Assembly (NCBI GenBank): GCA_030607575.1
Contig: JAUWJS010000008.1
Location: forward strand, 1 to 43,319
Origin: Candidatus Heimdallarchaeota archaeon
GTDB lineage: Archaea; Asgardarchaeota; Heimdallarchaeia; Heimdallarchaeales; Heimdallarchaeaceae
Length of the DNA stretch: 43,319 nucleotides
Direction of reading: 5' to 3'
The translations under genes and the position numbers were made by a program. The stretch's first letter is position 1, and each line of letters begins with the position of its first letter. This document shows, one piece after another, positions 21,422 to 28,617 of the stretch. The notes below the pieces were generated by a model that did no database searches, had not been told where the DNA came from, and saw only the letters and a program-made list of their open reading frames with translations.

Positions 21422-24022
21422 TCATTGTTCCTTTAAGTAATAATCAGGAGATGTTACAAATCTATTTTCATCTTCAGCATCTCCTACTTCAAAGTCAGTG
21501 TAAATTTCTTCCATAATCTCCTTATCACTTATATCCGCCAATATTTTGCGCTTATCAACTGAAATAATTCTGCTTAATTCTATGGTTTTTGGGTTGAATT
21601 TTTCCATCGTTTCTTTCATTTGGGTGAGATTTTCGATTTTACCTATGAGATTCATAAAGGTCATTACAATATCAGGTCTGAGTGCAACTTGTGGAGCTAT
21701 ACTCAATTGTTTGCCTATAGAAATAGCTAAGTTATCAATGAAATTCTGATCTTTTTCAAATAGTGAAGCTGGACGATCACTGATGAAAGATGCAATTAAT
21801 AATAAATCAATTGATGTCCATAAATAGAGGAAGGGTTTTTCCATTAGTTGTAAATTATATACAATACCTATTTCTGTGCCTTTTACATTTTCAACTACTT
21901 TACCTTCTAAATCAAAAATTTCATTTAACTCAAATGAAGGAGCACCGTAACTAACCTGAATCATATTACCAATTTGTCTAACATTGCCCATTGAATATAA
22001 CGAAAATTTAGAATTTTCTACTCTTTCAGGAAGAATTCCTGATTTTTTCTCAATCAAAATCCTTTTCAACATTTCAATGTCATCTATTTCATCCTCAGTT
22101 CTGTCGTATTCTTGTGCAAAATCTTCTAGAATCTTTTTCTTTTTATCTCGAAGAGATATCTTAGATCGAGTAATGAGGGGCTGGTTGAAAACATCATAAA
22201 AGAAATCATAAATTATTCCGAAAAGACCAGCAGATACTTTTTTCTTCTCTACAACAAGGAAGTATCCTTTCATAGGATGATATATGACAGAATGAGCTTT
22301 ACCGATTGCTTTTCCAAAAACATTTCTTGCAGAAACATCTTTATTTTCAGTAATTTCATCATTGATTATGTTGCTTTCTGCTGGATTGAAATAAGGAAGT
22401 ACATCACCATTTTGGATAATGTCTTGACTTTTTATTCTCATTTCTCTTGCCTTTTTCTCTATTTTCTCGATGGGAACAAATAGATAATTTTGAGATTGAA
22501 GAATTATTTCAATTATTTCATCAGTTAATACTAAACCCTTAATCTTGCAGTATTCTATAATCGCTTCTGGTATTAAATATGTAAAAGGCATTTGTGGTAT
22601 ATTTTTAGGTAGCTCATTTAGCAAAAATTCTTTTTTCTCTTTTTCATTTTCCAGTTCATATTCTCCACTAATTGGCATTACGATATTGTCGTAAATTCTT
22701 CTGACCATAGAGAGAGATAGCTCTTGTTGTTGTCTTAAAATTATACCAAATTTCTCATTCAGTTGTCCAGGACCGACCACAAAACCAACTAAATCTTTAT
22801 GTTCATCAATAACAGGTTTACCAGAATATCTCCAAAGTGCTTTAAGTTCTGATAACAGCTGATAATCTATTTCCCTACTTGATGCACTAGTTGCAACTGT
22901 TAGTTGATTGCGAAATTGTAGAGCACTAATAATTTCACTATATTTTTGAATACGATTTTCTGTCTCAAGTGTTAGATCTTTGAAGTAAGGAGTTATTATT
23001 TCTTGAAACTGTAGATGATCTCCATAAATTACATCCAAGGCATCCAAATCTGTTGCGTAATCGTTAATATCTTCATCTAATAGCTCTTCATAAATTTCGA
23101 GCTGTTTGATTTTTCTGATTAATTCATTAATTTGAGTTTCAGAAATTTCATCTATGTTGTTCTCCTTGAAAATTCTAAAATTCTCCTTTTCCTGTTGAAT
23201 AATAACCTTCCATCTTAGAGTATCTTGAGCTGCTTTTCGGAGAATGGGTCGATGTCTTAACACTCTTTCATTAATATCATAAATTATTCCCTTCAATTCC
23301 TTTTTATCAGTAACAAGACGTCTTAACCTATTGATGTTTTCACTCAATTCATTGTTAAAAAGGAGAAAATTATTGTGAGTGTTTTTGTATAAATGTTCTG
23401 TGCTAACAGAAAATAATAGCTCAGATAATTTGTAAAAGTGTTGAAAGATTTTATTTTGCTTAGCTTCAACTTCATTCTTTTTTCCCATATATTCCTGGTC
23501 ATTAATTATACCAGACACATAATCTTGCTCTAAGATCATTTCCTCTTCAAATATTTTTGTGGCGGCTTTAATAGCCATACTCATAACATATCTTACTTTT
23601 AATTCTTCAATTTCAATGGGAGGAATTTCTTCAAGCTCAATAATGGGAATCTCAATCGCTTTAGTGATTTCAACTTCAGTTGGTACAAACACTTCTTCTG
23701 TCTTAATTTGAGGTTCACCAGTTACTGTTTCAGTTTCAGTTTCAGTTACTGCTTCAGTTTCAGCTGGTATTGATAATTCCCCTATCTGAATTTGATGTAT
23801 GTCTTGTTCAACTTCAGGTAATTTTTGTTTAGTTTCTTCTAGCTCTTTCTTTTCTTCATCTGCAGTAATAGTTTTTGGAAGATTTGCTAGAAGTTCCTTA
23901 TATTTGTTTTTTAAAGTTTGATAGGTTCTTCTATCAATTGAGCCACGGATGTAACGTAAATCTAAATCTCTAATAAATCGGAGAATTCGTCTTCTCTTAA
24001 CGTTTAATTCATCGTCTAACAT
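21422..24022 (-). CDS. Large 866-aa protein with coiled coils and PRC-barrel-like segments
   Basis: I do not recognise a named family. The layout is as follows. Residues 1-50 are basic and helical (RRRILRFIRDLDLRYIRGSI). Residues ~55-150 are acidic and low in complexity, with a TETETETV run. Residues ~150-400 are mostly long helices likely to form coiled coils. After that come three separate segments that look like PRC-barrel beta motifs: about 405 (GKPVIDEHKDLVGFVVGP), 566 (NVFGKAIGKAHSVIYHP) and 702 (FDLEGKVVENVKGTEIGIV). There is no signal peptide; a short hydrophobic stretch (YLWTSIDLLLIASFI) is probably buried rather than a membrane span. It diverges from the profilin-like gene across 153 bp. 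It may be a structural or scaffold protein, which is inference. Confidence 0.75.
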   Translation of the reverse strand: MLDDELNVKRRRILRFIRDLDLRYIRGSIDRRTYQTLKNKYKELLANLPKTITADEEKKELEETKQKLPEVEQDIHQIQIGELSIPAETEAVTETETETVTGEPQIKTEEVFVPTEVEITKAIEIPIIELEEIPPIEIEELKVRYVMSMAIKAATKIFEEEMILEQDYVSGIINDQEYMGKKNEVEAKQNKIFQHFYKLSELLFSVSTEHLYKNTHNNFLLFNNELSENINRLRRLVTDKKELKGIIYDINERVLRHRPILRKAAQDTLRWKVIIQQEKENFRIFKENNIDEISETQINELIRKIKQLEIYEELLDEDINDYATDLDALDVIYGDHLQFQEIITPYFKDLTLETENRIQKYSEIISALQFRNQLTVATSASSREIDYQLLSELKALWRYSGKPVIDEHKDLVGFVVGPGQLNEKFGIILRQQQELSLSMVRRIYDNIVMPISGEYELENEKEKKEFLLNELPKNIPQMPFTYLIPEAIIEYCKIKGLVLTDEIIEIILQSQNYLFVPIEKIEKKAREMRIKSQDIIQNGDVLPYFNPAESNIINDEITENKDVSARNVFGKAIGKAHSVIYHPMKGYFLVVEKKKVSAGLFGIIYDFFYDVFNQPLITRSKISLRDKKKKILEDFAQEYDRTEDEIDDIEMLKRILIEKKSGILPERVENSKFSLYSMGNVRQIGNMIQVSYGAPSFELNEIFDLEGKVVENVKGTEIGIVYNLQLMEKPFLYLWTSIDLLLIASFISDRPASLFEKDQNFIDNLAISIGKQLSIAPQVALRPDIVMTFMNLIGKIENLTQMKETMEKFNPKTIELSRIISVDKRKILADISDKEIMEEIYTDFEVGDAEDENRFVTSPDYYLKEQ

Positions 24023-24163: not shown

Positions 24164-24168
24164 GGTGA
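24164..24168 (+). promoter_or_regulatory. GGTGA ribosome binding site of the profilin-like gene
   Basis: GGTGA 7 nt before ATG 24176; it fixes the start of the 119-aa protein. Confidence 0.5.
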
Positions 24169-24175
24169 AAGAATC

Positions 24176-24535
24176 ATGAGTTTTCAAGACGATGTTGCAG
24201 TAGCTGCTCAAGAAGGAACCGTTGGAGTGGTTTGGTTAATTGGGGATGATTTGAAATGTTATTATCAATATGGGGACTGGGCAGTTGATCCCACAATACC
24301 TTTCGATTCTTGGAAAAATCAAAAACCAAGCGTTGATTTTGGTGGAGGTTTGAAATTTACAGTGATTACAATGTCTCCTGAGAGATTAATCTCAACCAAC
24401 ATGGGTGGTCAAGGACATTTAATTGTTGCCCGGTGTCCAAAATGGGCGGGTTGTGTAATTTCTTGGTGTCCATCCACTATACAGAAAGATATAGCTTATG
24501 CTACTACAGCAAGACTTGCAGCCAAAGTAGCTTGA
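24176..24535 (+). CDS. Profilin-like protein (candidate Asgard profilin)
   Basis: A 119-aa protein of the right length for profilin, an actin-monomer-binding regulator of filament growth. The match by eye runs the full length. MSFQDDV resembles the MSWQ-type N-terminal helix. TVGVVWLIGDDLKCYYQYGDW fits strands 1-2, which carry a G-D-x-x-W-type turn in eukaryotic profilins. A helix containing IPFDSW comes next, then GGLKFTVI like the profilin GxKFM block. The loop and strands GGQGHLIVARCP and GCVISWCPST follow, and finally IQKDIAYATTARLAAKVA like the C-terminal helix preceded by P-T-V-Q. Roadblock/LC7 folds share a beta-beta-alpha ending and are the main alternative. Actin binding is inferred; no actin gene is in the window. 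The gene has a GGTGA site and diverges from the 866-aa gene. Confidence 0.68.
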   Translation: MSFQDDVAVAAQEGTVGVVWLIGDDLKCYYQYGDWAVDPTIPFDSWKNQKPSVDFGGGLKFTVITMSPERLISTNMGGQGHLIVARCPKWAGCVISWCPSTIQKDIAYATTARLAAKVA

Positions 24536-24557: not shown

Positions 24558-24860
24558 TTGTTTTCACATCCATCTATTGAAATTAGGAACGATAAACTCT
24601 TTTTATCAGTTAGAGTTCATCCCAAATCTTCAGTAAATAGGATTGATGTTTCTGATTTTTCTATAGATGTCTATGTTAAGGAAATAGCAGATAAAGGTAA
24701 AGCAAATAGATCAGTATTAAGTTATTTAGCTAAAACATACAAAATTCCCTCCTCTTCTATTTCTATCTCTCGAGGGTTAAAGTCAAGAAATAAAATAGTT
24801 GTAATAAAGGATCAGAATAATGACTTACTTCTGAAAAAAATAATTGGAAAGCATATTTAG
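24558..24860 (+). CDS. DUF167 (YggU/UPF0235) family protein
   Basis: A 100-aa protein with the DUF167 pattern: a strand block LFLSVRVHPKSSVNRI, then IDVYVKEIADKGKANRSVLSYLAKTYKI, where GKAN is the family hallmark, then SISISRGLKSRNKIVVI. The function of this widespread small family is not established. No ATG is available; the first usable codon is TTG 24558, just after the profilin-like stop, so it is probably cotranscribed with that gene. Its last 4 bp overlap the convergent gene at 24857. Confidence 0.85.
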   Translation: MFSHPSIEIRNDKLFLSVRVHPKSSVNRIDVSDFSIDVYVKEIADKGKANRSVLSYLAKTYKIPSSSISISRGLKSRNKIVVIKDQNNDLLLKKIIGKHI

Positions 24861-25423
24861 AGTTTCATCTTTTCAAATGCTCGGAGCAATTCATTTCTTT
24901 CATTAAACCGATTTTGTACGCTGCTACTCAGATTCATAAGAGCTGTGATATTATTTTCTACTGTATCCAACATCATCTCTTCTAGGTTGACTTTTACATC
25001 TACTATTTTGTCTTTAAATTCTTCAGCATTATCCAAAATATCTATTTCTAGCAAGTAGAGGATAGACAAATCAATTCCATGTTCTCCTTCAACTTCTTTT
25101 ACATCAAAAAATGTGCTATACCTATAATCTGTATTTGCTGTTTCTTTTCTCATATCTGAAACGATTTTCATAACTATTCCTGCTGGACCCCAACTTGTTA
25201 ATAGTTGTGAATGGATTAGAAGTTCATGCACTTGACTCATCATATCTCCAGTTTCCCTCATTAGTTTAAGTAATTTTGTTCTGAAAGCTACATCAGAATC
25301 TCTTCTTACTTCTAATTCCTTGTATCCATGATAATTTTCAATGTTTGCACTAAGAATTTTTAGAGCCTCACTGGGTCTCTTTGAAATTTCTTCTTCAGTC
25401 AAATTCTTTTTCTTGCCGAACAT
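24857..25423 (-). CDS. Small mostly helical protein of unknown function, MFGKKK start
   Basis: A 188-aa protein, almost entirely helical by pattern, starting MFGKKKNLTEEEI. It has amphipathic stretches (VAFRTKLLKLMRETGDMMSQVHELL; VNLEEMMLDTVENNITALMNL) and an N-terminal basic patch. I do not recognise the family. It does not show the basic N-terminal helix pair and MIM ending expected for ESCRT-III/CdvB proteins, so I do not call it one. It is the last gene of a three-gene minus-strand operon, 22 bp after the DNA ligase. Confidence 0.65.
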   Translation of the reverse strand: MFGKKKNLTEEEISKRPSEALKILSANIENYHGYKELEVRRDSDVAFRTKLLKLMRETGDMMSQVHELLIHSQLLTSWGPAGIVMKIVSDMRKETANTDYRYSTFFDVKEVEGEHGIDLSILYLLEIDILDNAEEFKDKIVDVKVNLEEMMLDTVENNITALMNLSSSVQNRFNERNELLRAFEKMKL

Positions 25424-27225: not shown

Positions 27226-28617
27226 TTATCTTTTCTTGCCTTTTTGCTCTTTCATTTCCAGAACAATTTCACTAATCAAATGAATAAGATTTGCACTTAA
27301 AACATCAAGACTATTTTTAAGTTCTCGAACAGCTTGAGTAAGATCATCAATCTTTTGCATTTGTTCTGCAGGTTGAACTTTCTGCACTTCTGTATCTACT
27401 TGTAACTCTTGATCAAAAATCATGAGATCTTTCTCAAATTGATCCATTTCAGGAGTTCTAGGTTCTGGTATTGAAGTAATGTCACCTTTAATTACAGATT
27501 TAGCAGTTTTCTTGCGTTTTTCCTTCTTACTTTTATCGCGTTCTTCTTTTTCACGAATTCTTTCCAAATAAGGTAGGATTTGTGCGTAATCAACTCCTTC
27601 TCTGCGAGCCATATCTGTCAAGAGAATGTCACGATATCCAGGATCTTCGATTTTCAATTCATCTATATCTTTCTCTAATTCCTGAATTATTGCAATTGCT
27701 TCGTAAACATTTTTGTGAGGAGTTTTTACTTCTGGTTCTCTTTCAACAGTTTTTGTGTCTCTAACTTCTTCTTTTAATGATTTCATAGCTTTTATAACTT
27801 CAGCCTTGACTGTATCGGTTTCTCCTTCAGAGAGAACTTCCTTAACCATATCAAGTTTACTCACAGATTCAAAAGATTTTTCTATAGTTTTTTCTTTGAT
27901 ATCTATATCTTCTTCAGCTTCTTCTGCAAGTTCTTCATCTTGTTTTGTAAATGTTGGGGGAACTGATACATATTTAAATAGGTTTTTAGCAAAATTGGAA
28001 TTATCTCTTAATTCAATTCCTGATTTGGAATCAGATAACAAAAGGTATGAACCACATACAAAAACTGTTCCTAAACCATAAGAAGATATACACATAACAG
28101 CAGAACTAGGTGGATCGCTTGTTTTTTTTGTCCTAACTAGTTCCTCTACTCCTTCTTTGAGATGCAAGGAGCAACTGGAAACCATTGTTATTTCACTAAG
28201 ACCTTCAGTAATTGGGTGATTATAGAATTTTGAAACAATTACATTGCTTTCTAATTCTAAATCAAAGCTATGGTAATCAAAAATTTGATTAGCTACAATT
28301 TCTACATTAAAATGTTTGAGCAGTGTGTTCAGATTAGTATTTAATCCCTTATCTCCTCCTGCATTAGAGAAAATTGCTAGTGCTCCACCCTCATCAACAA
28401 ATCTTAGCAATGCTTTAACTTCATGCCCCATAATCTTTGAACCATCAGGACACAAGAAGACAAAGATGTCAAATTTGGAAATGTTTGAATATTTTATAGG
28501 ATATGAATCATGTTTACTTATTTCATGTCCTTCTCCTTCAAGTATGTTTGCTAGTTTCTGAAAATTCTCAAAAATTTTTCCTCTCTCTTTTTGAGTTTCA
28601 TCGAAAAGTATTTTCAT
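27226..28617 (-). CDS. GIFT-domain-like protein (IFT52/GldG-type N-terminus) with charged C-terminal region
   Basis: A 463-aa soluble protein. Residues 1-~225 resemble the GIFT domain found in the intraflagellar-transport protein IFT52 and in bacterial GldG-like proteins: ILFDETQKERG at the start, ALLRFVDEGGALAIFSNAGG, LNTNLNTLLKHFNVEI, and GTVFVCGSYLLLSD before the domain end. IFT52 has a matching D-x-GG, then DTNINFLLEEYGI, then a G-S-x-x-x-x-S-D segment. The remainder (~230-463) is acidic and basic, with long helices (IQELEKDIDELKIEDPGYRD, LPYLERIREKEERDKSKKEKR) and a C-terminal helix ending in KGKKR. The start is ATG 28617. It leads an operon with DNA ligase and a small helical protein. 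Identity by eye only; a related class I glutaminase-like fold is the alternative. Confidence 0.6.
   Translation of the reverse strand: MKILFDETQKERGKIFENFQKLANILEGEGHEISKHDSYPIKYSNISKFDIFVFLCPDGSKIMGHEVKALLRFVDEGGALAIFSNAGGDKGLNTNLNTLLKHFNVEIVANQIFDYHSFDLELESNVIVSKFYNHPITEGLSEITMVSSCSLHLKEGVEELVRTKKTSDPPSSAVMCISSYGLGTVFVCGSYLLLSDSKSGIELRDNSNFAKNLFKYVSVPPTFTKQDEELAEEAEEDIDIKEKTIEKSFESVSKLDMVKEVLSEGETDTVKAEVIKAMKSLKEEVRDTKTVEREPEVKTPHKNVYEAIAIIQELEKDIDELKIEDPGYRDILLTDMARREGVDYAQILPYLERIREKEERDKSKKEKRKKTAKSVIKGDITSIPEPRTPEMDQFEKDLMIFDQELQVDTEVQKVQPAEQMQKIDDLTQAVRELKNSLDVLSANLIHLISEIVLEMKEQKGKKR

Follow-up and report, generated by a model that had tools for sequence, protein, structure and literature searches.

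A single-copy profilin gene in a heimdallarchaeal Asgard archaeon, its product predicted by homology to bind the organism's own eukaryote-type actin

The profilin gene and its neighbourhood

The window, by which we mean the whole 43,319-nucleotide stretch of heimdallarchaeal DNA that was analysed, carries on its plus strand an open reading frame at 24176..24535 that opens with ATG, closes with TGA and encodes a protein of 119 amino acids. Its extent is exactly that given in a preliminary description of the DNA, which had proposed that it encodes an Asgard profilin. Stop codons interrupt the opposite strand when it is read in this register. Upstream of the ATG the frame stays open for only seven further codons, with no other ATG among them, which leaves too little space for any long extension at the N terminus. 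A possible ribosome-binding site, GGTGA (24164..24168, plus strand), lies 7 bases ahead of the start codon. The frame is intact across relatives from 98% down to ~20% identity, with insertions and deletions in-frame only and no internal stops, a pattern of conservation that marks the open reading frame as a real gene.

The closest named loci come from metagenome bins labelled 'Candidatus Heimdallarchaeota archaeon', with protein identities of up to 98%. Of the 228 Asgard genomes, 174 have a relative that passes a threshold of E<=0.001; within the genus the gene is present in 19 of 21. We set aside a true loss in one genus member (G009), whose contig ends 35 bases past the neighbouring gene, where the profilin would be expected. 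A profile search of the gene's own genome returned no second copy, and a scan for close relatives in viral contigs found none.

Throughout the genus the gene order is conserved, running from an 866-aa protein (minus strand) through the profilin (plus), a DUF167/YggU protein (plus), a 188-aa protein (minus) and DNA ligase (minus) to an IFT52_GIFT-like protein (minus) and a ParA-like ATPase (plus). The 866-aa protein (window 21422-24022, minus) matches no known family; its gene is divergent from the profilin gene and adjacent to it through the genus and the family. A 463-aa protein (window 27226-28617, minus) matches the IFT52 GIFT domain over residues 3-111 (1.4e-9); the domain takes its name from a protein of transport in eukaryotic cilia.

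The 188-aa neighbour (window 24857-25423, minus) is a single-copy gene in 55 of the 59 genomes of the class. Among the 21 genomes of its own family in which both genes were detected, 20 have it within ~1 kb of the profilin gene, and it is similarly close (~1 kb) in 6/6 genomes of a second family (f4), its orientation being changed in some genomes. The protein matches no known family, its sequence matches in the PDB are at chance level only, and its model, a confidently predicted all-helical bundle, gave no significant fold match. We consider the case for this protein as a dedicated profilin partner weak, because the two genes lie apart in three further families of the class (f5-f7).

Profile and structure searches identify a profilin

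When searched singly against the PDB, the 119-aa sequence matched Odin profilin best (5zza, 2.4e-11), followed by the Thor (7pbh, 2.8e-5), Loki profilin 1 (5yed, 9.9e-4) and Heimdall LC3 (6yrr, 5.7e-3) proteins; Loki profilin 2 (5zzb) was matched as well. We then used a profile built from 35 Asgard sequences, in which the other members are 84% to 18% identical to the 119-aa protein. This profile matched the same five Asgard profilin chains in the PDB at 1.8e-38 to 1.9e-25 and, after them, 15 eukaryotic profilins at 2.5e-5 to 0.037; beyond the profilins, only chance matches were returned, and no other family. The sequence profile hence ties the protein to experimentally solved profilins ahead of other families. 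As to PF00235, against which the preliminary description had suggested a search, 22 of the 35 profile members match this family (best 1.8e-7), whereas the 119-aa protein alone matches nothing in Pfam or NCBIfam, PF00235 included, so that its link to PF00235 runs through its relatives only.

All of the sequence features from which a profilin had originally been proposed are present. These are the MSFQ opening (residues 1-4), a GLKF block (58-61) that follows the helix at 40-47, a glycine-rich MGGQG turn (76-80; 24401..24415, plus) ahead of the strands at 80-86 and 92-99, and PSTIQ (99-103) immediately before the C-terminal helix, in which A107 and L114 stand in A-x6-L spacing. Such loose motifs are insufficient on their own to assign a family; together, the profile and structure searches prove it far beyond chance.

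The AlphaFold2 model (pLDDT 93.4, pTM 0.85) shows, by DSSP, a helix, two strands, the helix at 40-47, strands at 52-56, 59-66, 70-75, 80-86 and 92-99, and a final helix. This is the topology of a profilin, with the N-terminal (residues 3-13; 24182..24214, plus) and C-terminal (residues 104-116; 24485..24523, plus) helices packed on the sheet and a three-strand motif (residues 52-75; 24329..24400, plus) in place of half of the central helix. It is this replacement that separates profilins from roadblock proteins, and the motif is the part that binds actin (PMC10933270). In a Foldseek search of the PDB, the top rank was taken by the Odin profilin-actin complex (E 4.4e-9, TM 0.85, rmsd 2.0), with Loki, Thor and Heimdall profilins next; profilins from human and plants came after these, along with a profilin homologue from a poxvirus. 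All of ranks 1-13 are profilins or this viral homologue, at rmsd 2.0-4.6 Å.

The preliminary description had named two outcomes that would refute the profilin reading, a best match to roadblock/LC7 or another fold and the lack of any profilin hit in a sensitive profile search; neither occurred, and profilins lead both searches. That the protein is instead a roadblock/LC7 protein, a small-GTPase regulator sharing its core fold with profilin, is refuted to the point of carrying almost no probability: roadblock chains (Ragulator MP1/p14, Asgard Roadblock3) do appear from Foldseek rank 14 at TM ~0.6, and Robl_LC7 is matched marginally by 2 of the 35 profile members (best 0.027), but 13 profilins or profilin homologues outrank these chains, whose rmsd is mostly 5-9 Å. 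In the model, moreover, three additional strands follow a short central helix, the arrangement by which profilin is defined, and there is no long roadblock-type central helix for dimerisation; nor is any roadblock chain matched by the sequence profile.

Actin regulation and comparison with characterised profilins

The same genome encodes one eukaryote-type actin, which scores 445 bits against PF00022; its nearest PDB match is 'HC1 actin', with eukaryotic actins following at >500 bits. Actin was found in 21/21 genomes of the genus. An intact gelsolin of 208 aa and two domains is encoded as well, its nearest match being Heimdall 2DGel (7whf, 3e-54), so both kinds of gene named for a search in the preliminary description are present. 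At a second gelsolin-domain locus (L095:745-1200 plus upstream sequence; contig C117:2855-3370), the frame is interrupted by a TAG, which may mean that the gene is broken or that an error was made in sequencing.

Published work has shown that Odin, Loki, Thor and Heimdall profilins bind actin monomers and inhibit nucleation, and that phospholipids relieve this inhibition. We are highly confident that the gene encodes the single profilin of this heimdallarchaeal archaeon, which by homology would bind the organism's own actin. Actin binding is very likely in view of the solved profilin-actin complexes of its closest relatives, and is to be expected of a profilin of the Odin type. The protein would bind actin monomers through the face of the three-strand motif, the strands that follow it and the GGQG turn; once bound, it would block spontaneous nucleation and control growth at the barbed end. 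By analogy with its relatives, phospholipids would release it from actin.

Aligning the protein with Heimdall LC3 profilin, we mapped four LC3 positions mutated in the literature, and only one of them is kept: G104 (G80 here), whose alanine mutant inhibits filament elongation more weakly. At the other three, F95 is replaced by L71, G63 by P39 and L134 by D105. Residue N36 of the LC3 paper mismatches the LC3 chain in our alignment, where position 36 is S.

These replacements at three of four tested actin-interface positions are what could be expected if the protein had kept the profilin fold, lost actin binding and taken up another role, such as binding lipids or a neighbouring protein. An LC3 profilin deprived of its N-terminal extension, a form resembling the 119-aa protein, left rabbit actin unslowed, but its binding to its own actin persisted (PMC8410842). 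Odin profilin likewise has no extension; this nearest of the solved relatives crystallised in complex with actin (5zza). Within the class, W35, G80, W90 and W97 are invariant in 24 aligned members, G80 being invariant across all 66 aligned rows, and actin itself is retained throughout the genus. On this balance we regard a loss of actin binding as improbable and retain the reading of an actin-binding profilin.

Odin profilin is the best match in both sequence and structure. The two proteins are alike in length, in fold (TM 0.85) and in having neither an N-terminal extension nor a long Loki-loop, but they are 28% identical, and C87, W90 and W97, located in the last strands of the 119-aa protein, differ in Odin. 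The LC3 profilin (6yrr, PMC8410842) shares with it a Heimdallarchaeota origin, the profilin fold, the glycine at G104 and an aromatic pair (Y52/W53, here Y29/Y30); in contrast, LC3 has a 23-residue N-terminal extension and residues forming an additional helix, H123-S129, both absent here, besides the change at F95. The Thor (7pbh) and Loki 1 and 2 (5yed, 5zzb) profilins have the same fold and clear sequence similarity, but the extended N-terminus of the former and the Loki-loop insertion of the latter are both missing from the 119-aa protein. Eukaryotic profilins (Acanthamoeba, plant, human) share the fold at TM ~0.65-0.73, with weak but significant profile similarity, yet structural alignments give 10-15% identity, and the polyproline site is at best partly kept here.

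Among Asgard profilins the protein is typical, and its lineage carries the basic machinery of actin. Characterisation of these profilins dates back to 2018, with Loki, Odin, Thor and Heimdall representatives already described, and because the family is known already, as are its regulation of actin and how widely Asgards carry it, the gene alone changes little. What it adds is a clear single-copy profilin, along with its actin and a gelsolin, from a lineage of heimdallarchaea, which are more often than other groups placed closest to eukaryotes. The presence of all three makes this lineage a good candidate for reconstitution in vitro.

A proline-rich protein as a candidate ligand

Proline-rich partners may also bind the 119-aa profilin, but this is uncertain: judged from the alignment to LC3, its polyproline site is only partly kept, and among characterised Asgard profilins polyproline binding is absent in Loki and Odin and weak in LC3 and Thor (PMC8410842). 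We scanned the genome for five consecutive proline codons and found two sites. One lies in a 302-aa membrane-anchored proline-rich protein (L097:877-1782, equal to G000:C152:51162-52067), in which a hydrophobic segment at the N terminus is followed by what is probably a coiled coil, then by a proline-rich stretch and lastly by 34 near-invariant C-terminal residues. The proline-rich stretch spans ~110 residues, roughly one third of them proline, and includes AAPPPPPG; the C-terminal motif reads FAKSTSIAALRKEMLKELDRLKKFM.

The 302-aa protein matched no known family. It has matches in 30 of the 36 genomes of the order, and its proline-rich part was seen in each of the 12 genus sequences examined, as well as in three sequences belonging to other genera or families. 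Weak matches to the C-terminal motif occur in Odin and other Asgards, so the motif is not specific to lineages with polyproline-binding profilins. As a hypothesis that we think unlikely to hold, the profilin might work with this protein throughout the order, bringing profilin-actin to the membrane; if so, the pair would be a simple counterpart of formin or Ena/VASP. The other five-proline site (L096, contig C99:3434-3447) lies in an open frame of 394 codons with PPPPP at its end (KKLIKNIPPPPP).
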